From NCBI GenBank assembly GCA_026990595.1, contig JALXCZ010000029.1, forward strand, positions 1 to 53,534: 53,534 nucleotides of DNA, read 5' to 3'. The stretch comes from Sulfurovum sp. (lineage in GTDB: Bacteria > Campylobacterota > Campylobacteria > Campylobacterales > Sulfurovaceae). The notes under the pieces were generated by a model. That model was not told the DNA's origin, did not search any database, and was given only the letters and a program-made list of their open reading frames with translations. The stretch's first letter is position 1, and each line of letters starts with the position of its first letter. Below, piece by piece: positions 26,549 to 50,841 of this stretch. A program made the translations under genes and the position numbers.

Positions 26549-27358
26549 TTACCAAAATTTATACCCAATTTTAAAATTTAATGAATCATGCAAGTCCTCA
26601 TCTATTTCTCTATTATATGAGAGCGTTGCAAACCAGTCTTTGTTTATTTTATAGTAGAGGGTACTACCTAAACTTCTAGTAACATGTTCATTGGTAAATT
26701 TACTTTCAGAGAGTCCAAATGTGAGATTGGCATAAAATTTATTTGTAAAAAAGTATCCTGCTCCAATATAGAAATTATTGGTGTCTCGTAGTGGGGTAAT
26801 GACTTTTTCATCTTGTACAAAGGTATGACTAAGTCCAGTAAAAACAGAAAGTGAATGGGTAGGATAATAACTTAATGAAGAGTAAAGTGTATAATCTGTT
26901 TTATTTCCGGTAAAGTCATAAGTAGGGAACTTTATCCCCATGCCCAAACCAAGTTTTAGTTTTTTTGTGAGCTTGATTCGTTTTCTAATTTTAAATGTGG
27001 TATCTAAAATACCACTGTTTGTATTGTGTGAATAGTAGCCGCTTCTTAGAGAGTAACTCCAGTTGTTATGATAATAACTGAGTTGTACCGTACCGGTATC
27101 TTGTTGTTTTCTTCCTACCAAGTCTTCGTTGGTACTAAAGCCATACCCTAGTGTGAGTGTCATACTGTCGTATTCGGTTTCATTAGGGAGTGTTAGTATC
27201 GTTGTTGTGCATCCTTGGGCATTGACTTGATTTAAGAAAGGAGTGTGCGGACATTGGTCGAGACTATCGGGTACTCCATCAAAATCTTCATCATTGATAC
27301 CTTGGGCATAACTTAGTGTACTTGCTAATAGTCCTAGAGCCAATAGTTTTTTAGTCAT
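26549..27358 (-). CDS. TSP3-repeat plus beta-barrel outer-membrane protein (cassette 1)
   Basis: 269 residues from MTKKLLALGLLASTLSYAQG, which gives a clean signal peptide; an in-frame upstream extension is Arg/Lys-rich and overlaps the neighbour. The mature N-terminus NDEDFDGVPDSLDQCPHTP is a thrombospondin-type-3/OmpA-linker calcium motif, with a second Cys in AQGC. About 210 residues of amphipathic strands follow, ending LNFKIGYKFW, a barrel C-terminus. A paralogue with the same layout lies in cassette 2 at 45693. Last gene of the RR1-HK1 operon (overlaps the preceding gene by 8 bases). Probably an outer-membrane channel or sensor accessory; function unknown. Confidence 0.65.
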   Translation of the reverse strand: MTKKLLALGLLASTLSYAQGINDEDFDGVPDSLDQCPHTPFLNQVNAQGCTTTILTLPNETEYDSMTLTLGYGFSTNEDLVGRKQQDTGTVQLSYYHNNWSYSLRSGYYSHNTNSGILDTTFKIRKRIKLTKKLKLGLGMGIKFPTYDFTGNKTDYTLYSSLSYYPTHSLSVFTGLSHTFVQDEKVITPLRDTNNFYIGAGYFFTNKFYANLTFGLSESKFTNEHVTRSLGSTLYYKINKDWFATLSYNREIDEDLHDSLNFKIGYKFW

Positions 27359-27875
27359 CATTATGCTCCTCTTCATGTCTATCTTCTGTCTCATTCTCAA
27401 CATGCTCCTGTGTTTGTGTTTCGATATTGTCCTCTGTTTCATTACTGGTTTCATTCTCTACACTATTGTCAGTTTCATTGGAAGTTTCGTTTTCAACATT
27501 GTTTTCGGTCTCATTGGAGGTTTCATTCTCTATATTATTTTCTGTCTGATTGGTAGTGCTCTCTTGTGCATCATTGTCTTTGATCCTCTCTAATGTATCA
27601 TTATGATGTTTGGAATATCTACGTGGTTTATGTCGAGTGATTTCTCTAAGTGCAGCATTCGCATGTTTACTACTATTGATCGATCTTAGTTTCGTTAGTG
27701 CCTCTATTCGCTCTGTCTCTTTCATTTGTACTATTTCACGTTTAAAAGCATTCATTAATTTAAAGCGTTCTGATACAGAAGCCTTTTGTATAGCTTCTAT
27801 CTGGGAATCTACATCAGAGATAATGGGCAGTGACAATGCAATGCATAACACCCATGGAAGAAAAAAATATTTCAT
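27351..27875 (-). CDS. Secreted helical protein with acidic repeat tail (cassette 1)
   Basis: 174 residues. Signal peptide (about 1-20); a short helical domain (about 22-80, IEAIQKASVSERFKLMNAFK ... ERIEALTKLR); then a tail of 12-residue repeats built on ENET-SNET (about 100-150); then an acidic His end. The overlap with HK1 is 4 bases (ATGA), showing translational coupling. The helical domain looks distantly similar to that of the cassette-2 protein at 46500 (IxxIK...MN/IN..K...M....R). A periplasmic ligand-binding regulator of the kinase would fit the position, but nothing in the sequence proves it. Confidence 0.6.
   Translation of the reverse strand: MKYFFLPWVLCIALSLPIISDVDSQIEAIQKASVSERFKLMNAFKREIVQMKETERIEALTKLRSINSSKHANAALREITRHKPRRYSKHHNDTLERIKDNDAQESTTNQTENNIENETSNETENNVENETSNETDNSVENETSNETEDNIETQTQEHVENETEDRHEEEHNDD
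27427..27544. repeat. In-frame 36-bp tandem repeat in the acidic tail
   Basis: About three degenerate copies of a 36-bp unit encode the ENxxENETSNET repeats. Multiples of three keep the frame, so length can vary between strains without breaking the gene. Confidence 0.7.
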
Positions 27876-28927
27876 CTGTTCTCCTCCGGGAGGTTTTTAA
27901 AATCAAGTATGACCTCTGTCCCCTGATTTAACTTGCTTTTTATATGTAGGATAATATTGAGTTCATTTGTCAGCTTTTGGACAATATGCAATCCCAAACC
28001 TATGCCTCTGTCCTGTTCTTTATAATAACGATCCAATACTTTTTGGATCTCTTTGATCCCTTTACCGGTATCTTGTATGACCAGTCTGTTTTGAGCAATA
28101 GTGAGCTTCACTTCTCCGTTGGGTTTATTATATTTTGCAGCATTGCTTAGTAGATTATCGAGTATACGGGTAAGTAGTTCTTCATTGCTCCATTTAAGAA
28201 GATCATGCTTTTTGTAATACACAAAAGAGATCTTTGGGTAGATGTTCTGTATGAATTCCAAACGTTTTTTTGCCAATAGTGCTATATCTATATGACTGTT
28301 TTGTGAAGGAGAGTGATGCAGGAAACTTTTTAGATTATTCTGCAACAAAAGAATAGTATTGATACTCTTTGAGACCTTGTTAATGAAAGGATCTTCTCCT
28401 TTTTCTTTTTTGAACATATTGATATTGAGTAACATTGCAGTAATGGGTGTATTAAAATCATGCAGGATATCTTTAATGAATTCATCGTTGATACGTAATG
28501 CTTTTCGAATAGGTTTAAGACTATAGAGGGTAAAGAAGAAAGCAATTCCCATGAGTAAGAAAGTTGCAACAATGAACTTAATCCAGAGAATATTTCGTAT
28601 ATGGGTCATATCTTTATGTAGTGCTTTTTTAGGATAGGAGATCCTGATCAGATACTTTTGGGATTTTGGAATAGTAAAAAAACTATATAAACCGCTGTTT
28701 TCATACAGTCTGTTCAGCTTATGGTTGTCTTTGGGTGCAAAATTGAACTGAAATTGGTCACATTTCATCGTATAGCTGCATAATTGCATGGTTTTATGTA
28801 TATTTTGCTTATACTCTTTGATCTCTGTATGATTAAGTTCCCCAAAAAGCAAAACAAGCAACACTTCCAACAGTGAAAAAAATACAAGAAAATTTTTGAG
28901 CAGAGACTCTTTTTCATAACTTTTCAA
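27872..28927 (-). CDS. Sensor histidine kinase HK1
   Basis: 351 residues from a TTG start at 28927 that overlaps the RR1 end by 14 bases and has AGGAT 6 bases upstream; the two paralogous kinases start at the same aligned position. Two membrane helices (about 12-30 and 115-137) flank a periplasmic domain of about 85 residues. The phospho-acceptor is His156 in DILHDFNTPITAML; note N in place of the usual R/K of HExRTP. N box: ILDNLLSNAAKYNKP; G boxes: DTGKGI and RGIGLGLHIV. OmpR-type partner is RR1. The ligand is unknown. Confidence 0.85.
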   Translation of the reverse strand: MKSYEKESLLKNFLVFFSLLEVLLVLLFGELNHTEIKEYKQNIHKTMQLCSYTMKCDQFQFNFAPKDNHKLNRLYENSGLYSFFTIPKSQKYLIRISYPKKALHKDMTHIRNILWIKFIVATFLLMGIAFFFTLYSLKPIRKALRINDEFIKDILHDFNTPITAMLLNINMFKKEKGEDPFINKVSKSINTILLLQNNLKSFLHHSPSQNSHIDIALLAKKRLEFIQNIYPKISFVYYKKHDLLKWSNEELLTRILDNLLSNAAKYNKPNGEVKLTIAQNRLVIQDTGKGIKEIQKVLDRYYKEQDRGIGLGLHIVQKLTNELNIILHIKSKLNQGTEVILDFKNLPEENR

Positions 28928-29540
28928 GAATATATCCTCTGCCTCTGATATTTTTAATCGTGATACCAAGTCTTTGTTTTATTTTGGTTAATGCCACGCG
29001 AAGGGCTGTATCTGAAATATGGTCAAGACATTCATAGAGTTCTTCTTTATTTACGATTTTGCCTTGATGAAGAAGGAGTTTCTCAAAAATCTTAAACTGC
29101 ACATTTCCAATATCAATGATCTCCCCACTCAATCGTAGAATTCTTGCATATGAATCATAGTTTATATTGCCATAATGTATTGATCTCTTCTTGAATTTCG
29201 CATCAATACGAATCAGTAATTCTTCTGGAGAAAAAGGTTTTTTGATGTAGTCAACAGCACCCAGATCAAACCCTTTTGCCATAGAGTTCATATCAGTAAG
29301 TGCAGTAATAAATATAACAGGTGTTCGGTCTTCAGCATTTCTGAGTGACCCCAACAAAGACAGACCACTCCCTTCCGGCAGATTAATATCAAAAAGATAA
29401 AGATCATATTTTTGGGAAAAAGTAAGTTCTTCAGCCTCTTCAATATTTAGGGCTGTATCTACACCATAGCCTTCACGAGAGAGAAACAGTTGTAGTGTTT
29501 CACTTAGTATTTGGTCATCTTCTAAGAGCAGGAGTTTCAT
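28914..29540 (-). CDS. OmpR-family response regulator RR1
   Basis: 208 residues. The receiver domain has the acidic pocket EDD (7-9), phospho-accepting Asp51 (LFDINLP), Thr near 79 (FITAL) and Lys near 101 (KKPF). The C-terminal winged helix ends in the typical RGRGYILEKL. It is first gene of the RR1-HK1-repeat protein-barrel operon. Two GAGTGTTA/TAACACTC direct repeats at 11-bp spacing lie upstream, the geometry of OmpR-family sites, and a matching triple repeat precedes the nine-haem cytochrome gene. This suggests autoregulation plus control of the cytochrome. Confidence 0.88.
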   Translation of the reverse strand: MKLLLLEDDQILSETLQLFLSREGYGVDTALNIEEAEELTFSQKYDLYLFDINLPEGSGLSLLGSLRNAEDRTPVIFITALTDMNSMAKGFDLGAVDYIKKPFSPEELLIRIDAKFKKRSIHYGNINYDSYARILRLSGEIIDIGNVQFKIFEKLLLHQGKIVNKEELYECLDHISDTALRVALTKIKQRLGITIKNIRGRGYILEKL

Positions 29541-29612: not shown

Positions 29613-29631
29613 GAGTGTTAAGGGAGTGTTA
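29613..29631 (-). promoter_or_regulatory. Two TAACACTC direct repeats upstream of RR1
   Basis: GAGTGTTA at 29613-29620 and 29624-29631 (TAACACTC on the minus strand) are spaced exactly 11 bp, one helical turn, as for OmpR/PhoB-type regulators. The motif matches the repeats before the cytochrome gene. A TACAAT hexamer (29600-29605, minus) lies close downstream, so the site could overlap the -35 region. Confidence 0.6.
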
Positions 29632-29701: not shown

Positions 29702-32017
29702 TTATGGGTTTGGTCCGTTATGACAGTCATAACATGAGACCTGATGATCTTTTTGCAGGGTTTTGTTTCCATGTTCAACACTGAGTGTACGTGTTGTGAA
29801 CATTTCAGAAAGTGCAGAACCTCTGTAGTTTTGTCCATGACAAACTTTACATTGTGCAGCATTTCTTTCTGCAACATGTTTATGACCGCTGACCCAAGAC
29901 TGTCCAACAGGGTGCATACCGTGTGGTCCGCCTGTAGTAGTGTTTGGTACAGAACTGTGACATGAGGCACATTCACCGATAGTTCCTGTATGTCCTTGAA
30001 TACCTTCACTTAAAATATTGTCCGCATTGTGTGCAGGGTAGATGGCATGTGTTGCACCGTGACAAGCTTCACACTGTAACTTACCATGACCGGTACTAAA
30101 TCTATATAGACTGACACCTGTCATTGGTGTATTGGTGTTGGTAGCAAATTTTGTATCTACCACATGTCTGAGTGTATTGGTCGCTGGATCAATTGCTGAT
30201 GTTTCACGCATACCATCATGGTGACATGCTTGACAGTTTGGCTCACTTAGCCAACCTTTTCTATTGGCATCTCCTACATTGCTCATATGACCATGACAAC
30301 TTTGACATTGCATTGTGTTCTGTCCGTTTGCATCTTTAGAATCTCCCATAGCACCTCTAAGACATTTAGTTGCTGCCCCTGGGTGACAAGCATAACATGC
30401 ACCTCTATTGGTACTGTCATTCATTGCTAAGTTGGTATATGGATCGATAACTTTAGCATGGTAACTATGTATAGCTGTAGTAAAGGCTTTAATATTATCT
30501 ACACCTGTACCTGGTAATGCATTGGAGCTGTGACATGCTGAACATAAGATAGGCGTACCTGCTCTTGCACTTGCTTCAAGTCCTGCTGCATCATAAGTGT
30601 AGCCTTTTTTATTGAGTGATGCCATATGATCTTTGACTGCATTTGGCATACGTTCATCATGCAGACGTAGTACGTTCAGCTTGAAGTCTTTTTCTGGGTC
30701 TGTGTCAGCAACCCATCCTGCATTTGGTTTTGCTTTTGGTGACAGTGAATTGGTTGCGTGACAACGCTTACAATCCATCTCATCACTAATAGGCAGTACC
30801 ACTTTAGCTGTAGCAAGTACATTTCCTGCAGTGTCTTTTGCTGTGACTTTGACCAGTGGATAGTAGTTTTTACTTCCGTCATCATTATAAGGTGTAAGTG
30901 GTAAGCCTTCTGCTTTCCACCACTTCTCTTGTGTATCAAATAACATACTTTGAGGTATGGTACTTGGTGTTTTCTTACCCGTCAAACCTACGTCAGGCTG
31001 TAAATTTGAATTTGGAAAAAGTTTATTACTAAAGTCCCAGAAGTTGGTTTTATCTGCACTTGACGTGTTGATTTTACCATCAGTTCCTGTGGTAGATTCA
31101 TAGGTCAATGTTACACCGCTAGTGACTAAACCACCATTTTTATCTTTGAGTTGTGCATGGAGATTATTGTAAGGAGGAAGTACTGAGAATACAGAGAAGT
31201 CATTTCCATCCATACAGTGCATTCCTAGGTCATTCCATGCTGTGAGTATATATCCGTTGGATGTAGTTGTTCCACCACCAGTTGTTCCACCACCTGTTGA
31301 AGTGTTGGTATCGGTAGTTCCTCCATCATCATGGTCATCATCATGACTACTATCATTTTGAGTATCATTGTTTGAATCCATAATATCTGGTGTACCATTA
31401 TGATTGCTGTCATCTTGGATGTCAGGTGTTCCATTATTATTGGTGTCTTCATACGCTGTAGGTGTACCGTTGTGATTTGGATCTTCATAGACATCTACGG
31501 TACCATTTTGATTGCTATCGTATGTAGTGTCAGGGGTCGTTGTTTCAGTTGCTCCTTGAGGAATATCTATCACCATAGGTGTATCTTTGACATGGTCACT
31601 ATTGTTATCGTCCATAGCAGTTGGGTCTTGTGGAAGATCTACATATCCTAAATCAACGATATCACCTGTCATCTGGATACGTGTAGATTCATTACCTGAT
31701 GCATCTTGGAATGCTAACATAGTAATGGTTCTTTGTGCAGGATTGTCTTCATTCATTGTCATCACAATATAACAACTACTGTCTTTTTTCACATCCAGTT
31801 CAAAAGGATGACGGTTGGTATCGTTATTATTTGATTTGGTTGTGTAATATTTTCCGTTATCACAGAAAGCCTCGATTTTGGTTCCCGGTACTGTACCTAT
31901 AAGCTTTGTTGTCTGTGTGGTAGTTGTTGTTGCAGCAGTTGTTCCGCCACCTCCACCACCACAGGCAACAAGTAAAGGTATAGCTGACAAACTAAGTAGT
32001 ATGGATCTTTTTTTCAT
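29702..32017 (-). CDS. Nine-haem c-type cytochrome lipoprotein with calcium-type repeats
   Basis: 771 residues from the ATG with AAGGAG upstream (MKKRSILLSLSAIPLLVACG, lipobox LVAC). A Gly/Thr linker follows, then an acidic DxNxNGTPD-type repeat region (about 160-235), then a beta-rich block beginning AWNDLGMHCMDGNDFSVFS. The C-terminal half has nine C-x2-C-H sites: CKRCH, CSACH, CYACH, CQSCH, CQACH, CEACH, CASCH, CKVCH, CYDCH. It should be exported, matured by cytochrome c biogenesis, and act in extracytoplasmic electron transfer. Substrate unknown. Three TAACAC repeats precede its TATAAT promoter. Confidence 0.88.
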   Translation of the reverse strand: MKKRSILLSLSAIPLLVACGGGGGGTTAATTTTTQTTKLIGTVPGTKIEAFCDNGKYYTTKSNNNDTNRHPFELDVKKDSSCYIVMTMNEDNPAQRTITMLAFQDASGNESTRIQMTGDIVDLGYVDLPQDPTAMDDNNSDHVKDTPMVIDIPQGATETTTPDTTYDSNQNGTVDVYEDPNHNGTPTAYEDTNNNGTPDIQDDSNHNGTPDIMDSNNDTQNDSSHDDDHDDGGTTDTNTSTGGGTTGGGTTTSNGYILTAWNDLGMHCMDGNDFSVFSVLPPYNNLHAQLKDKNGGLVTSGVTLTYESTTGTDGKINTSSADKTNFWDFSNKLFPNSNLQPDVGLTGKKTPSTIPQSMLFDTQEKWWKAEGLPLTPYNDDGSKNYYPLVKVTAKDTAGNVLATAKVVLPISDEMDCKRCHATNSLSPKAKPNAGWVADTDPEKDFKLNVLRLHDERMPNAVKDHMASLNKKGYTYDAAGLEASARAGTPILCSACHSSNALPGTGVDNIKAFTTAIHSYHAKVIDPYTNLAMNDSTNRGACYACHPGAATKCLRGAMGDSKDANGQNTMQCQSCHGHMSNVGDANRKGWLSEPNCQACHHDGMRETSAIDPATNTLRHVVDTKFATNTNTPMTGVSLYRFSTGHGKLQCEACHGATHAIYPAHNADNILSEGIQGHTGTIGECASCHSSVPNTTTGGPHGMHPVGQSWVSGHKHVAERNAAQCKVCHGQNYRGSALSEMFTTRTLSVEHGNKTLQKDHQVSCYDCHNGPNP

Positions 32018-32045: not shown

Positions 32046-32099
32046 ATTATAGGATACATGGTATTACTGTTGTGTTAGGGAAGTGTTAGGGGAGTGTTA
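32046..32099 (-). promoter_or_regulatory. Promoter with three 11-bp-spaced TAACAC repeats, nine-haem cytochrome gene
   Basis: Minus strand: TAACAC at 32099-32094, 32088-32083 and 32077-32072, then TATAAT at 32051-32046. The proximal repeat covers the expected -35 place and no good -35 hexamer is seen, as for promoters that need an OmpR-type activator. The same repeat occurs upstream of RR1. Confidence 0.7.
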
Positions 32100-44039: not shown

Positions 44040-45080
44040 CTAAACTACTTTACTCATATCCAAATGAACAGTAACGATATTCTCTTTGACTTCCAAGCTC
44101 TTTGCTATGTCAAGTTGTTGACAGAGTTTCTCGACAATATGCAAGCCGATACCCAGACCCCGTTCATTCTCTTTGTAGAAACGTTCAAAAGCCTTGGTGG
44201 GGTTCTTGATCCCGTCATAAGAACTGTTTGCTATTGAGAGTGTTGTTCCCTGCATAGAAATCTTGATGAAACCGTCTGAAGTATTGTATTTACAGGCATT
44301 GCTCAGCAGGTTGTAAATGATCCTTGCAAAAGCGTTAGGGTCACTTTTGATGATACTGCTTTGAATGTTGACTTCCCAGTTCAGGTAGTCATACATGGGA
44401 GCAAAAAAATCAACCTGTTCCTGTACAATCTCCTTAAGATCGAATTTTTCTCGTTCAAATATTGCCTCTTTGAGGTATGCATCAAGATTGTTCTGCAGCA
44501 TAGAGATAGTTTGAGCACTCTTGCCGATATTCTCTACTTCTTCATTGTCTGCATCCATCATCTTGAGATTGACAAGTATGGATGTAAGAGGTGTGTTAAG
44601 GTCATGAATGATGTCTTTGATGAACATCTCCAGAAGCTGCAGACTTTTTCGCAGTGGACTGAGTACATAAAAAGAGAAGAGTACTGAGATAAAAACAGCA
44701 ATAAAAGAGAGTAGAAGAAACTGTCTTAATAGTGATATTTTTGTTCTATGAAGCAGTTTATAGTATTTGTTAAGCGGATAGAATACTTTTACTGCATCTT
44801 TTCTACTCTCCGGGAGAGGGACTAAAATATATATATTTTTTTGATCATGATAGAGTTCATAAAAGGTTTTTGTGCTTTTTTTTAAGGAAACTACATCAAT
44901 GTCAAACCGGTCATCATCAAAAAAAAGACTATAGTTTTTCATCTCCAAAACAAGCTCTCTGTCAATATGCACTTTTTCAACTTTATAGTAAAAATAGAAA
45001 ATAGAGACAAGAAAAATTTCGATCACAAGAAAGAAGAGGGTAAAACTCTTAAGCAGGGACTCTCTTTCAGATAATTTGAT
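44040..45080 (-). CDS. Sensor histidine kinase HK2 (probable AUC start)
   Basis: 346 residues if it starts at ATC 45080-45078, which aligns with the TTG starts of HK1 and HK3 and has AGGAG 6 bases before. The nearest standard start, GTG at 45026, would delete half of the first membrane helix (SLLKSFTLFFLVIEIFLVSI). Two membrane helices enclose a periplasmic domain of about 80 residues. Phospho-acceptor His159 is in DIIHDLNTPLTSIL; N box IIYNLLSNACKYN; G box GLGIGLHIVEKL. The start overlaps RR2 by 14 bases. Paralogue of HK1. Confidence 0.8.
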   Translation of the reverse strand: MKLSERESLLKSFTLFFLVIEIFLVSIFYFYYKVEKVHIDRELVLEMKNYSLFFDDDRFDIDVVSLKKSTKTFYELYHDQKNIYILVPLPESRKDAVKVFYPLNKYYKLLHRTKISLLRQFLLLSFIAVFISVLFSFYVLSPLRKSLQLLEMFIKDIIHDLNTPLTSILVNLKMMDADNEEVENIGKSAQTISMLQNNLDAYLKEAIFEREKFDLKEIVQEQVDFFAPMYDYLNWEVNIQSSIIKSDPNAFARIIYNLLSNACKYNTSDGFIKISMQGTTLSIANSSYDGIKNPTKAFERFYKENERGLGIGLHIVEKLCQQLDIAKSLEVKENIVTVHLDMSKVV

Positions 45081-45696
45081 AACCGACTCCTCTCACATTG
45101 TTAATTTGAAGATCGAACTTTTTTTTGAGTTTGGAGATGTGTACCCTGAGTGTAAGGTCAGAAGGTTTGTCCAAAAGGGACATCAAATCATTCTTATTGA
45201 CAGGATCGGGATAATGTTTAATGAGTGAAAGCAAAATACTCTTTTGTACTTTTCCTAAAGAGATAGATGATCCGTTATAGGAAATTTCCTCTTTTGTCAT
45301 ATCGATTTCAAAATTTTTGAATTGAAGTGCTTTTTGCAAAGTAGATGTTTTTGCTCTGATACGAATAAGAAGTTCTTCAGGATCAAAAGGTTTTTTCATA
45401 TAGTCATCTGCGCCAGCAATAAAGCTTTGTGTTACAGAAGTGACATCCCTCAGTGCACTGATGATAATGGCAGGTGTATGATCGTCTGCATCTCTGAGTG
45501 CCTTAAGCAGGTCTATACCGTTAAGTAGAGGGACATTGATATCTAAAAGATAGAGATCATATCGGTTATCATAGCTCAGGTCTATGGCCTCTTCTCCATT
45601 TTTTGCCCAGTCAAGTTCATGACCATGGCTGCTCAGATACTTGATGAGTGTTTTGGAGAGACTAGGGTCATCTTCAAGAAGAAGAAGTTTACTCAA
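45067..45696 (-). CDS. OmpR-family response regulator RR2
   Basis: 209 residues. The receiver has EDD (8-10), phospho-accepting Asp52 (LLDINVP) and Lys near 103 (KKPFDPEELL). The C-terminal winged helix ends VRGVGYQII. It is close to RR1 in length and sequence (LLLLEDD, DLYLxDIN, KKPFxPEELLIRI). The start overlaps the barrel gene stop by 4 bases. The operon order here is repeat protein, barrel, RR2, HK2. No direct repeats like those of RR1 were found upstream of this operon. Confidence 0.88.
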   Translation of the reverse strand: MSKLLLLEDDPSLSKTLIKYLSSHGHELDWAKNGEEAIDLSYDNRYDLYLLDINVPLLNGIDLLKALRDADDHTPAIIISALRDVTSVTQSFIAGADDYMKKPFDPEELLIRIRAKTSTLQKALQFKNFEIDMTKEEISYNGSSISLGKVQKSILLSLIKHYPDPVNKNDLMSLLDKPSDLTLRVHISKLKKKFDLQINNVRGVGYQII

Positions 45697-46487
45697 AACT
45701 TTACTCCAATGTTAAAAGAGAATAGGTGGTCATAGTCTGAAGAGTGGTTCAATGTACGTGCATAGTTGCATGAAATATAGAAATCATGCGGTAAAGTATA
45801 GTAGTTGAACCATGAGAGTGCTTTGTAGGATCTTATATTGGCATAAGGTGATTGTGCATAATTATAGGAGAGGGCACTGTACCATTTTTCAGTGAATGCA
45901 TACCCTGTTCCTATGGAAAATGAGTGAAAATTCTCATAGTCGGTTGTGTCGCTGTTGCCACTGAATGTATAGCTGTAGTAGAGAAATATATTCTGTTTTG
46001 GGCTGATGAAGTAATCAAAATTTGTAGAAATGAAATAATCATTGTCCCTATCGATAGCATCATCATCCATAAAAGCAAACTTGGTTCCTACAGAGATTTT
46101 GGTATTTAATTTGTTTGTTTGAAAGAGGTATCCGGCTGTTAAATAAAGGTCATCTTCTGTGTCAATGAGTGTGTTAATGTTGGTTGCATTGTAATTGGTA
46201 CTTGAAAGAGAAAAGTCCCATTTTTTGTAGTTGTAATTCAAAAAGAGATTAAGGATATTTGTTTTATTGGAAAAAGAGTTAAAGCTGATATCTTCACCTA
46301 TTTGAAATGTAAACTTTTTTGTACCGGTTGTATCATAGGGACATCCGTTCTCATCAACGATCTTATCAAAAGGGGTATTGATACACAGATCATGTGCATC
46401 ATCAACACCATCAATATCTTGATCATTCACTGCAAAAAGTGATGTTGTGAGTATCAATAAAAAGTAGGGTATAGGTAAAAACTTCAT
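45693..46487 (-). CDS. TSP3-repeat plus beta-barrel outer-membrane protein (cassette 2)
   Basis: 264 residues: signal peptide (about 1-19), mature start VNDQDIDGVDDAHDLCINTP with calcium-type Asp positions and a Cys, a second Cys in ENGCPYD, then about 200 residues of alternating strands ending FSFNIGVKF. The N-terminal motif, size and barrel end match the cassette-1 protein at 26549, so they are paralogues despite low identity in the barrel. It is translationally coupled to RR2. Could be a surface sensor or channel monitored by the kinase. Confidence 0.65.
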   Translation of the reverse strand: MKFLPIPYFLLILTTSLFAVNDQDIDGVDDAHDLCINTPFDKIVDENGCPYDTTGTKKFTFQIGEDISFNSFSNKTNILNLFLNYNYKKWDFSLSSTNYNATNINTLIDTEDDLYLTAGYLFQTNKLNTKISVGTKFAFMDDDAIDRDNDYFISTNFDYFISPKQNIFLYYSYTFSGNSDTTDYENFHSFSIGTGYAFTEKWYSALSYNYAQSPYANIRSYKALSWFNYYTLPHDFYISCNYARTLNHSSDYDHLFSFNIGVKF

Positions 46488-46499
46488 CTGTATCTCCGT

Positions 46500-46982
46500 T
46501 TATGTTTTATGAAAGGGTGTATTTATTTGATTTGGGATCGAAGTTGGAACCGATGTTGGAATTGGAACTGATGTCGGTACCGGAACCGATATAGGCACTG
46601 AAATAGGAACAGATGTTGGGGTTGATGTCGGAATTGAACTTGGAACTGTTGTCGGTGTGGAAGCTGGTGTTGGCTGTTGTGCCGTTCCCTGATGGTGACT
46701 GACCTGTTCTGTAGATGTATGCTGTGTAGGCTGAATGGTATGACCACCTAAAGAATGCTGAAGGTCAAGCATGATCTTTCTTCGGATCTCAATGTTCATA
46801 TTCCGCAGTCTGATCTTCAGTCTGTTGATAGAAATTCGTCTGTTCATAGGGTTGCTTTTGATCTCTTTGACAAGTTCTTCTATGGTTTGTTCATCTTTAT
46901 TTTGTTTGGTTTTCTTCTCTTTTGCATAGACTGTATTCGTTAACAAAGAAAAAAACAGAAGTAATATAGAGAGATATTTCAT
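46500..46982 (-). CDS. Secreted helical protein with Pro/Thr/Ser/Val repeat tail (cassette 2)
   Basis: 160 residues: signal peptide (about 1-20), Lys-rich helical domain (about 22-75, IEELVKEIKSNPMNRRISIN, IRRKIMLDLQHSL), His/Gln linker, then a tail of SVP/TSVP/TSIP repeats (about 105-150) that should be extended like cell-surface linkers. The helical domain corresponds in place and pattern to that of the cassette-1 acidic-tail protein at 27351. Here it is the first gene of the operon (12 bases before the barrel gene). No family known. Confidence 0.55.
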   Translation of the reverse strand: MKYLSILLLFFSLLTNTVYAKEKKTKQNKDEQTIEELVKEIKSNPMNRRISINRLKIRLRNMNIEIRRKIMLDLQHSLGGHTIQPTQHTSTEQVSHHQGTAQQPTPASTPTTVPSSIPTSTPTSVPISVPISVPVPTSVPIPTSVPTSIPNQINTPFHKT

Positions 46983-47217: not shown

Positions 47218-48615
47218 TTAAAACTGATATCTTAGGTACACTCTTACGTCCTGTGCTTTATCTACAATGTATTTTGCCATAGGTGAGTTTTTTGCATCCT
47301 CTATCTTCATGGCTGCACCGGTCGTACTTCCAAAGAAACCTTGACTTCCAGTATAATCATAATCCATATATGTATAGCGTGCCTGGAAGCTTAATCCATC
47401 CATGATCTCTTTTGTATAGTAGGCTTCATAGGCATTACCTCTTACAGCAAGTTTCGATCCTGCAACTGTATCTTCCGCATAGGTAAATGATCTCCAGTAT
47501 TTGCTGCCATGATTGTACTCAAGTCCAAATCTTCCACCAAGCAATGCTGTTTGTGCACCAAACCAGTAGCTTGTACCTGTCTCTTTGTCAGGGCTTCCCA
47601 GCATTGTTTGGTTATTGTTAGGATCTGTTTGACTCACAGCAAATGAGGCAAAGAATTTTGTATTGTTAAAGTTTTTGGCATTATACGTCATCATAAAATC
47701 CGCAAGATCCATGTTTCCAACAGTGTCAAATCCCTGATTCGGGTTCTGTGGATCTTTAAGGTCGATCAGATTGGTTACATGCATGGCTTGAAGTTCTGCA
47801 TGTAGTGCTTCGTCTGAATAGAAGACAAAATTCACATCAAACATATTGATATTTTTTCCCCAGTCAATATCTGGAGTAGGTGAAAGTGAAGGAGAGACAT
47901 AGCTGGCTCCTCTACCTGCGGCAAATTTAACTTTCATTCCTGAAACACCTGTAATTTTGGAAAGATTGAAAGCAAGATGACCTCCGTCAAATTCAGCAGA
48001 GACAATATGTCCAAGAGGAGAGTTGGCTTTGGTGTCATCTCTCCAGCTTATGAGTTGATTGTAAGAAGTAGAGCGTCTTCCTACCCCAAAACTCCAGGGA
48101 AGTTTCCCGTCCAAAAGTGTATCACGATAGTTGATATAGGCATTTTTTACTCTAAATCTATCGTCTGTATTGGTCGTTGAAGCAAGCCAGTCAAATCCGT
48201 CAAAAGGTGCTTTACCTCCTGGATAGTAGATAAATCCTTGTCCAAAAACTTTGTTGAATGCCAGTTTGGTGTTGAAATCTATATGTTCATTTGGTTTATA
48301 ACTGAAATTCAGCCAAAGTCTGTTTGTCAGCAGTGCATCATTTTTTGCAGTAGAACCATCTGCAAGGTCATAATGAAGATTGTCAACAGCAAAACGGTAG
48401 TCACCACTGATCTTTAATTTCCCGTAAGGAGAGTTGTTTTCTATTTGTGCTACAGGAGCAACATATTTTTCTTTGTGTGATGTTACTTTTTTATTCTTGG
48501 CAACCTGAAGTTCAAGTTGTTCTATACGTTTGAGTAGCTGTGCATTACTTGGTGTAGCTGCGTATAACGATGAGGTTGCAACAAATGCCGCAATACTTAA
48601 TCCAATTTTTTTCAT
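47218..48615 (-). CDS. Outer-membrane porin, DUF3373-like
   Basis: 465 residues from MKKIGLSIAAFVATSSLYA (AAGGA upstream; an 18-residue longer frame is unlikely). A signal peptide and a short coiled coil (AQLLKRIEQLELQVAKNKK) precede a large barrel with motifs SGDYRFAVDN, FNKVFGQGFIYYPGG, WSFGVGRRSTSYNQLISWRD and C-terminal DVRVYLRYQF. It resembles the DUF3373 porins common in Sulfurimonas-type bacteria. Function unknown. A strong inverted repeat lies in its predicted 5' leader, and it is divergent from the RR3 operon with 422 bases between. Confidence 0.75.
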   Translation of the reverse strand: MKKIGLSIAAFVATSSLYAATPSNAQLLKRIEQLELQVAKNKKVTSHKEKYVAPVAQIENNSPYGKLKISGDYRFAVDNLHYDLADGSTAKNDALLTNRLWLNFSYKPNEHIDFNTKLAFNKVFGQGFIYYPGGKAPFDGFDWLASTTNTDDRFRVKNAYINYRDTLLDGKLPWSFGVGRRSTSYNQLISWRDDTKANSPLGHIVSAEFDGGHLAFNLSKITGVSGMKVKFAAGRGASYVSPSLSPTPDIDWGKNINMFDVNFVFYSDEALHAELQAMHVTNLIDLKDPQNPNQGFDTVGNMDLADFMMTYNAKNFNNTKFFASFAVSQTDPNNNQTMLGSPDKETGTSYWFGAQTALLGGRFGLEYNHGSKYWRSFTYAEDTVAGSKLAVRGNAYEAYYTKEIMDGLSFQARYTYMDYDYTGSQGFFGSTTGAAMKIEDAKNSPMAKYIVDKAQDVRVYLRYQF

Positions 48616-48653
48616 ATTCTTTTTCCTTTGATATAAACTTCTTTGAGCATTAA

Positions 48654-48700
48654 ATGCATCAAATATCATAAATAGATGCTATCTATCATATTTGATGCAT
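48654..48700 (-). promoter_or_regulatory. Inverted repeat in the porin leader with upstream TATAAT
   Basis: ATGCATCAAATAT (48654-48666) pairs perfectly with ATATTTGATGCAT (48688-48700). A TATAAT on the minus strand (48715-48710) puts the predicted RNA start beside the stem, so the porin mRNA would begin with a 13-bp hairpin, as in RNA-stabilising leaders. An operator is the alternative. Confidence 0.55.
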
Positions 48701-49037: not shown

Positions 49038-49703
49038 ATGACTCCAACCCTTTTACTACTTGAAGATGATCTGCAGCTAAGCGATACGGTAAAACACTTT
49101 CTTGAACTGAAAGGGTACGAAGTCTATTGTGCATATGATGGTCTGCAGGCACAGGATATAGTCTATGAAAAACATATTGATCTTATGCTTTTGGATGTGA
49201 AAGTTCCATATATCAACGGTTTTGAGTTTTTAAAGAGTGTCCGCAGTGAAGGTAAAGAGATACCGGCGATATTCATTACTTCTCTGCATAGTACAGAAGA
49301 TGTAGAACAGGGATTTGCATCGGGATGTGATGACTATATCCGAAAACCCTTTGCTTTAAAAGAGTTGCTTGTCAGGGTGGAGTCTCTGCTGAAACGTACT
49401 TTTGGTACACATGATGATAAAATAGAGTTAAAGGAAGGGCTTGTTTTTGATACGAAAGAACTGCTTTTAATACAGGATGAACAAAAAGTATCTCTGAAAA
49501 CAAAAGAGCTGAAACTATTGGCACTTTTTTTGCAGCATAGTAATGAACTTTTGGAATATGAAAAGATATTTGAAGCCTTGTGGGAATATGGTGAAGAACC
49601 AAGTCCGGGTTCACTTCGAACCTATATTAAAACACTTCGTGCAGCCATAGGCAAAGAGAAGATAGAGACGATCAAAAATATAGGATATCGTTTTGTTAAG
49701 TAG
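49038..49703 (+). CDS. OmpR-family response regulator RR3
   Basis: 221 residues. The receiver domain has EDD (9-11), phospho-accepting Asp53 (LLDVKVP), Thr near 81 (FITSL) and Lys near 103 (RKPFALKELL). The winged helix is in the C-terminal third (SLRTYIKTLRAAIGKEKIET, IGYRFVK). First gene of a three-gene unit with HK3 and a monohaem protein. A dyad and TATAAT lie upstream. It is more distant from RR1/RR2 than these are from each other. Confidence 0.9.
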   Translation: MTPTLLLLEDDLQLSDTVKHFLELKGYEVYCAYDGLQAQDIVYEKHIDLMLLDVKVPYINGFEFLKSVRSEGKEIPAIFITSLHSTEDVEQGFASGCDDYIRKPFALKELLVRVESLLKRTFGTHDDKIELKEGLVFDTKELLLIQDEQKVSLKTKELKLLALFLQHSNELLEYEKIFEALWEYGEEPSPGSLRTYIKTLRAAIGKEKIETIKNIGYRFVK

Positions 49704-50841
49704 TGAGAAAAGAAGTCTCATCCGGTTTTTACTGATCTATCTGACTTCTACCTTCTTGCTTTTTTCTTTAGCTTCCTGGATATTTTACAGCTCTGCTAAA
49801 CATCACTTGCTTGACCAACAAAGAGAAACATTGAAATATGAAGCAGAACATATCAAGTCACAGTTAAGAGTACTGCACAGATCAGATGCTAAAATACTGT
49901 ACTATCCTAAAAGTAAGCATATACAATCTGCTATCTATGATCTCGACAAAGCCTATATATTCGGTACTTTTAAGACAAAGCATACCCTTAATGACCATAA
50001 AGATGAAAATGTTCTTTATCATATTGTAAAAATAGAACCCTACTATCTGGGCGCAGCATACCTTCTTGTATCCAAAGAAATAGATTTTAAACCTATTGAA
50101 GATTTACAAAAGAATATACTTTTTTTTATGTTCGCAGCTGGGATCTTTTTCTCTATATTGGGATATTTCCTTGGAAGACTGTTTGTGGCACCGATGCGTG
50201 ACTCCATTGAACAGATGAATCATTTTATTCAAGATACAACTCATGAACTCAATACGCCTATTAGTACTATACTAACCAATATTGAGATGATAGAGACTTT
50301 TGGGAAACATGAAGAGAGTAGAAAAGAACTGAAACGTATAGAAATAGCATCTAAAACACTCAGCCGTATTTATGATGATCTGACCTATTTGAACCTGAAT
50401 CATCATTATCACCGTAAGATCATTACACTCAATATGAGTGATCTTCTTAAAGAACGTATCATTTATTTCTCAGCAATGGCTGAAGCAAAAGGCTTGAAAG
50501 TCACGATAGATATTGAGCCGGATGTTATTTTTAAAATGGATAAAAATGATGCCGTGCGTTTGATAGATAATATTATCTCCAATGCGATCAAATATAATAA
50601 ACCCAAAGGTATACTCTATATCAAACTTACCAAGGATGCTTTTATTGTAAAAGATGAAGGTATAGGTATTAGAGCAAAGGATCTTACTACTATCCTACAG
50701 CGTTTTAAGCGGGCAAATAAAAGTGAAGGCGGGTTTGGAATAGGACTTGATATCGTTGATCAGGTAGTACAGAATTATGGATTTGATCTACGGATAAAAT
50801 CTCAGGAAGGTAAAGGTACGGAGGTAATGGTCAAATGGTAA
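49693..50841 (+). CDS. Sensor histidine kinase HK3
   Basis: 382 residues from a TTG start that overlaps the RR3 stop by 11 bases, with AGGAT 6 bases upstream. Membrane helices at about 12-32 and 142-163 flank a periplasmic domain of about 110 residues. The phospho-acceptor is His184 in DTTHELNTPISTIL, with the same N-for-R change as HK1 and HK2. N box IDNIISNAIKYNKP, G boxes DEGIGI and GGFGIGLDIV. Ligand unknown; the downstream haem protein might be involved. Confidence 0.88.
   Translation: MLSSEKRSLIRFLLIYLTSTFLLFSLASWIFYSSAKHHLLDQQRETLKYEAEHIKSQLRVLHRSDAKILYYPKSKHIQSAIYDLDKAYIFGTFKTKHTLNDHKDENVLYHIVKIEPYYLGAAYLLVSKEIDFKPIEDLQKNILFFMFAAGIFFSILGYFLGRLFVAPMRDSIEQMNHFIQDTTHELNTPISTILTNIEMIETFGKHEESRKELKRIEIASKTLSRIYDDLTYLNLNHHYHRKIITLNMSDLLKERIIYFSAMAEAKGLKVTIDIEPDVIFKMDKNDAVRLIDNIISNAIKYNKPKGILYIKLTKDAFIVKDEGIGIRAKDLTTILQRFKRANKSEGGFGIGLDIVDQVVQNYGFDLRIKSQEGKGTEVMVKW

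Follow-up and report, generated by a model that had tools for sequence, protein, structure and literature searches.

Introduction

In the E. coli Cpx system, CpxP is a main target and likely direct inhibitor of CpxA, and CpxP and NlpE together set a precedent for envelope proteins that serve a two-component system (PMC6737893). In the Rcs response, RcsF-OMP complexes show a beta-barrel being used in envelope signalling (PMC4942254).

The locus described here lies in a window (the whole stretch of DNA that was analysed, 53,534 nucleotides) from Sulfurovum sp. (GCA_026990595.1, contig JALXCZ010000029.1), and encodes a response regulator (RR), a histidine kinase (HK), a small secreted protein (SEC) and a barrel protein with a TSP3-type motif (BAR). 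Like E. coli CpxRA with CpxP and NlpE, this cassette combines an OmpR-type pair, a small secreted helical protein and a protein held at the outer membrane; unlike them, its SEC has no LTXXQ match, all of its parts are in one operon, its outer-membrane part is a TSP3 barrel, and its predicted target is an adjacent surface lipoprotein. As in RcsF-OMP, a beta-barrel is proposed to be paired with envelope signalling, but the cassette has no RcsF, IgaA or phosphorelay, and BAR is a dedicated protein whose gene accompanies that of the kinase. BAR shares its 12-strand barrel fold and similar size with FapF, the COG4313 channel and KdgM/NanC, and differs from them in sequence (11-17% identity), in an N-terminal TSP3 motif that replaces the plug, and in having a kinase gene alongside. 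OmpA/OprF-type proteins with TSP3 repeats share the DxDxDGxxDxxDxC motif with its second Cys (5wtl chain, E 5e-6), whereas the BAR motif is single and N-terminal to the barrel, and Pfam reported no OmpA peptidoglycan-binding domain. No description of the cassette was found among open-licence papers.

Results

Two copies of the cassette in the window

The genes of copy 1 and copy 2 were as follows.

28914..29540, minus strand: RR1, OmpR/PhoB-type response regulator (PF00072, E 7.7e-26; PF00486, 26.1 bits against a cut-off of 26.2)
27872..28927, minus strand: HK1, sensor histidine kinase with a TTG start and two TM helices
27351..27875, minus strand: SEC1, signal peptide, small helical domain and disordered acidic tail
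26549..27358, minus strand: BAR1, signal peptide, one TSP3-type motif with two Cys, and a 12-strand outer-membrane barrel
46500..46982, minus strand: SEC2, helical domain as in SEC1 with a Pro/Thr-rich tail; profile match to the SEC1 family
45693..46487, minus strand: BAR2, TSP3 motif and barrel; 29% identity to BAR1, profile E 4e-50
45067..45696, minus strand: RR2, 46% identity to RR1; PF00486 above cut-off
44040..45080, minus strand: HK2, HDLNTP kinase; 33% identity to HK1, without C-x5-C

An earlier sequence-only reading had placed four overlapping genes at 26549-29540 and the same protein types, in another order, at 44040-46982, and both placements agree with the coordinates. In copy 1, RR1/HK1 overlap by 14 bases, HK1/SEC1 by 4 (ATGA) and SEC1/BAR1 by 8, or by 11 if the alternative BAR1 ATG at 27361 is used. 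Copy 2 runs SEC2-BAR2-RR2-HK2 on one strand, with overlaps of 4 bases (BAR2/RR2) and 14 bases (RR2/HK2). The HxxNTP kinase box that had also been read from the letters is HDxNTP in both kinases (HDFNTP in HK1). By Pfam, PF00072 and HATPase_c scored above cut-off in both copies, and PF00486 and HisKA were above cut-off in copy 2 and 0.1-0.6 bits below it in copy 1, so that each copy is predicted to encode an OmpR/PhoB-type system with a receiver and winged-helix regulator and a HisKA/HATPase_c kinase; HK1 had no Pfam match for a HAMP domain. The plus strand carries one more RR-HK pair (49038-50841), only a distant relative of the cassette kinases, with a DUF3373 porin (47218-48669) between it and copy 2.

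Conservation, gene order and ancestry

A search with BAR1 gave a match in 66 of 150 genomes of its own family, and RR, HK, SEC and BAR adjoined one another in almost all neighbourhoods around these matches. A SEC profile matched 53 of 347 genomes of its own class, and the 40 SEC-first loci showed the full set, except in the f8 genomes, where SEC-BAR stands alone, and in f10 and related loci, where there is no full-length barrel; HK or RR lay beside SEC in 36/40. All four genes were found at strict cut-offs in 81 of 102 related loci, several of the others being interrupted by contig ends. The commonest orders among the 102 were RR-HK-SEC-BAR (45) and SEC-BAR-RR-HK (36); the cassette is built of an RR-HK block and a SEC-BAR block, either of which can come first. 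Starting from HK, a scan of named genomes reached records of Sulfurovum, Sulfurimonas, Sulfuricurvum, Hydrogenimonas, Nitratiruptor and Sulfurospirillum and others labelled Arcobacter, MAGs for the most part. Of these HK-first loci, 38 had full context and a high HK score, with SEC and BAR at 22, SEC only at 6 and neither at 10. Among 121 sampled genomes, those of families f2 and f3 almost entirely lacked the HDxNTP DNA pattern. Whether the search started from BAR, SEC or HK, the barrel and tail genes were mostly beside the kinase, the co-occurrence on which the sequence-only reading depended. The cassette is real and widespread, being present in several free-living families of Campylobacterota, and no name for it turned up in the libraries searched.

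The same genome has a third RR-HK pair of this family (G000:C52:34615-35658, L163), which lacks SEC and BAR and lies beside PTS-like genes, and about ten such orphan loci were seen in Sulfurovum. One contig binned as Aquificaceae has another kinase of this family at its edge (L293), by transfer or by binning error.

Pairwise BLAST alignment of the two copies gave the identities listed above for HK, RR and BAR and no significant alignment of SEC1 with SEC2. The type 1 and type 2 families were related by profile (hhalign) for both SEC (98.2%, E 3e-14) and BAR (100%, E 4e-50), against 2-4% for reversed decoys as controls (2% for the SEC comparison). In two-copy genomes, each gene was nearest to the same-type copy in another genome and far from its in-genome partner, with SEC in G001 as the sole exception; this marks the copies as ancient paralogues, each a unit of its own, and rules out recent duplication. 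The word "duplicated", used for the cassette at the outset, needs correcting: no recent event is involved, the units having been inherited by type.

Distance matrices of the four genes correlated with one another (Mantel r 0.73-0.89; 0/500 permutations), of which species history alone would account for some, and one co-inherited system is supported. The idea that chance or recent duplication keeps unrelated genes side by side has nothing in its favour beyond genome compactness; conservation across families in many genomes with order swaps, and the ancient split of the copies, leave this explanation a negligible probability, and the cross-genome counts refute it. The further claim of one functional system holds for co-inheritance and is weakened by RR-HK pairs that stand alone (10/38 HK loci). 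These lone pairs, and the split of SEC-BAR and RR-HK in f8, mean that the kinase does not strictly require SEC-BAR and that a working pair can do without SEC.

The same observations bear on a reading in which SEC and BAR are outputs only, RR-HK controlling their synthesis for envelope maintenance, as with a regulated porin and chaperone, and neither protein feeding back on the kinase. It is favoured by the lone RR-HK pairs, by the separate SEC-BAR and RR-HK loci in f8 (G161: L125, L168), and by the direct-repeat box (see below) that precedes SEC in many SEC-first operons. However, SEC is nearly always joined to one HK family, and this joining together with the four correlated matrices goes beyond what a target gene usually shows. 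We regard the outputs-only reading as a tentative possibility, on the unlikely side.

Kinase and regulator

HK has two TM helices and a short periplasmic domain of about 75 residues, which in HK1 carries C-x5-C. This motif was present in 40/40 same-family type 1 loci and 24/29 loci of other families (f7/9/11), 64/69 in total, versus 0/16 type 2 loci, and may point to a metal or redox role in the sensor. The recognition-helix motif ALRVxxxKxK is common to the cassette RRs.

Within the RR/HK overlap, 73 of 93 related loci, HK1 (28927) among them, start HK with TTG, and in the HK-first set TTG accounted for 65/80 starts and ATA for 5. Type 2 HK begins at ATA (11) or ATC (2), right after an AGAGGAG-like sequence; HK2 has no ATG, GTG or TTG in the RR2 overlap, and its conserved N-terminus starts at ATC 45080 after AGAGGAG. 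An in-frame stop lies closely upstream of the HK start in L077 and L088. These codons suggest a conserved weak or non-canonical initiation, or a frameshift, the choice of codon being partly forced by the overlapping RR codons.

The secreted protein SEC

A motif, ERxKLMNxLKxxLxxMNExER, is conserved in a 50-member alignment of SEC, and the SEC1 model (AF2) has four helices with a core pLDDT of about 90. SEC has no Pfam family. Its disordered tail varies in composition by cassette type (acidic, Pro-rich or Gly/Met/His-rich); one tail (L047:8489-9208) consists of about nine near-perfect repeats (QTQNQVQSQVEE), which suggests fast length change of the disordered tail.

Across 50 SEC members, LTXXQ was not among the 25 commonest Pfam families, and membership of LTXXQ (PF07813, CpxP/Spy) was ruled out by hhalign (0.1%); SEC is therefore not filed in CpxP/Spy, and a CpxP-like mode of action is kept as an analogy. 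A fold search in the PDB gave none at E <= 0.001, the best Z of 5.9 being within the chance range for helices, and the best PDB sequence match of the SEC profile, a MotB-related chain (E 0.003), looks like a membrane-helix or coil match and was set aside. DUF1104, small secreted proteins of Campylobacterota, share a similar motif spacing with SEC (MxxEER) and are found near type 2 cassettes with the box, but hhalign to SEC gave a probability of only 14%, a weak link that does not support homology. Small secreted proteins near type 2 cassettes, often with a box upstream, were seen at L077, L078, L079, L083 and L089, and one is a confirmed DUF1104. At L177 (G208), the SEC slot behind a same-family RR-HK pair holds a true LTXXQ (Spy/CpxP) protein (E 1e-11); after it come a cytochrome c and genes identified by eye as probable FTR1, ArsR-type and mercuric-reductase-like.

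The barrel protein BAR and its TSP3 module

In BAR, a DxDxDGxxDxxDxC...GC motif follows the signal peptide and is invariant in 61 relatives (D23 D25 D27 G28 D34 C36 G49 C50). The Pfam score of BAR1 for TSP3 (PF02412) was 18.5, below the 25-bit cut-off, and 42/61 members matched at E<=0.01; judged by its residues, the motif is a putative TSP3 calcium/cystine motif. The BAR model is a 12-strand barrel (pLDDT 90) whose nearest structures were FapF (Z 23.5 over 213 residues, rmsd 2.4), the COG4313 channel (Z 22.5), KdgM (21.4) and NanC (21.0). Families of the fap (amyloid) operon did not appear among the flank genes scanned.

A small TSP3 lipoprotein takes the place of the barrel in f10/f12 loci (at L123, L127 and L129, about 90 residues with two TSP3 motifs and no barrel), which argues against the pore being the essential part. 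A TSP3 motif as universal partner was also ruled out, since six full-context loci have SEC without it. From both observations, RR-HK ranks first in the likely core, SEC second and the TSP3 module third, the barrel being what most often carries that module.

A direct-repeat box ahead of the cassette and of neighbouring lipoprotein genes

Direct repeats with a period of about 11 bp are expected of OmpR-type regulator sites. Upstream of cassette operons, a direct repeat TAACA-N6-TAACA with an 11-bp period was found, exact at 13 of 80 operon fronts (0.14 expected) and with at least 9/10 match at 30/80 (1.6 expected), expectations being taken from first-order Markov shuffles. The period was 11 in 30 loci, against 0-5 loci at periods 8-10 and 12-15, and the box is thus a candidate site of the OmpR/PhoB type. 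It was upstream of 24/76 flanking lipoproteins versus 9/667 other flank ORFs (Fisher p 9e-19). The window holds 3 exact boxes against 0.34 expected, all upstream of RR1 or of a cytochrome gene.

29616..29631, minus strand: box TAACACTCCCTTAACA, 91 nt before the RR1 start; predicted RR site
32073..32099, minus strand: tandem boxes, three TAACA at 11-bp period and a fourth half-site TAATA, before the 9-haem lipoprotein
29702..32017, minus strand: 9-haem MtrC/MtrF-like lipoprotein (LLVACGGGGGG; PF22113, E 4.8e-14), likely target

The listed ORF of the 9-haem lipoprotein begins at 32059, and a TATAAT comes after that ATG, so that a start at 32017 is likelier. Cassette 2 has no exact box in the window, its nearest candidates having one mismatch and being within chance. 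The box count over the whole genome was not above control (11 vs 10), and the case for the box therefore rests on its position and conservation.

Homologues of the 9-haem lipoprotein lie near 16 cassette loci. The adjacent lipoprotein is a 9-haem cytochrome in type 1, a DUF2202 ferritin-like protein in type 2 and a beta-propeller in a third type. A lipoprotein with a Ser/Gly run adjoins 41/102 loci, several with 9 haems, and this, with the match of the BAR model to FapF, the COG4313 channel, KdgM and NanC, favours SEC and BAR as biogenesis helpers of the lipoprotein, BAR serving as a conduit or anchor at the outer membrane (like MtrB or FapF), SEC as a chaperone in the periplasm, and the two-component system as a gauge of surface-export success. 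Against it, the lipoprotein type varies widely, none was recognised next door in over half of the loci, some loci carry a TSP3 lipoprotein only, and a shared barrel fold shows no function; we consider a biogenesis role improbable.

Copper receptor and NosL genes

The box core was also found upstream of 20/28 copper-receptor-like TonB receptors and 13/29 NosL genes, and it occurs in genomes without the barrel as well. Most of these have a separate kinase of about 280 aa, near the cluster in several, which may be the real regulator of those copper receptors and NosL genes; the box may thus be read by more than one RR. On these grounds copper was rejected as the cassette signal and is not claimed for cassettes 1 and 2. 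The repeat core at copper receptor and NosL genes has TT flanks (TTTAACAC..ATTTAACAC), as at G000:C25:1709 and 2550 and C30:12721 (L306, L307, L311) and in L334-L393. Two SEC-only cassettes are directly followed by NosZ (L164) and by NosL-like genes, by CPxCGM motif (L264).

Discussion

The best model, to which we give about even chances, is an OmpR-type two-component system that regulates itself, has a dedicated accessory module of two envelope proteins, and controls a surface redox or metal lipoprotein. Through its periplasmic domain, HK would sense the envelope's metal or redox state and would phosphorylate RR, which would then bind the TAACA-N6-TAACA repeats (11-bp period) ahead of a -10 box and turn on, rather than repress, the cassette and the adjacent large lipoprotein. 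SEC, made from the same operon, would return to the periplasm as a CpxP-like modulator in contact with HK, an analogy suggested by its position, secretion, small helical fold and operon membership and by the LTXXQ protein at L177. BAR would hold the TSP3 Ca2+/cystine module at the outer membrane and either dock SEC or report outer-membrane state, and the module may play an NlpE-like part. The original proposal that the envelope proteins present or gate the signal may hold in this form; it had not taken in the box, the predicted lipoprotein targets or the exchange of the barrel for a TSP3 lipoprotein.

A stronger version, which we consider decidedly improbable, is a dedicated trans-envelope relay, in which the disordered SEC tail would be held in or under BAR by the TSP3 module, a metal or redox change at the surface would free the SEC helical domain and switch the kinase, and each cassette type would sense its neighbouring surface lipoprotein.

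The cassette is a case of an accessory barrel swapped for a lipoprotein with the same TSP3 module. In free-living vent and sediment relatives of Campylobacter, it appears to be a means, not described before, of sensing cell-surface state, lying repeatedly beside genes for predicted surface electron-transfer or metal proteins, with an apparent shared DNA switch. Vent and sediment Campylobacterota thereby gain a defined envelope-signalling module with two protein families that have no Pfam name and a predicted DNA site. Its predicted targets include multihaem outer-surface cytochromes, and with site and targets both predicted, the regulation of surface electron-transfer and metal proteins becomes directly testable in these bacteria.
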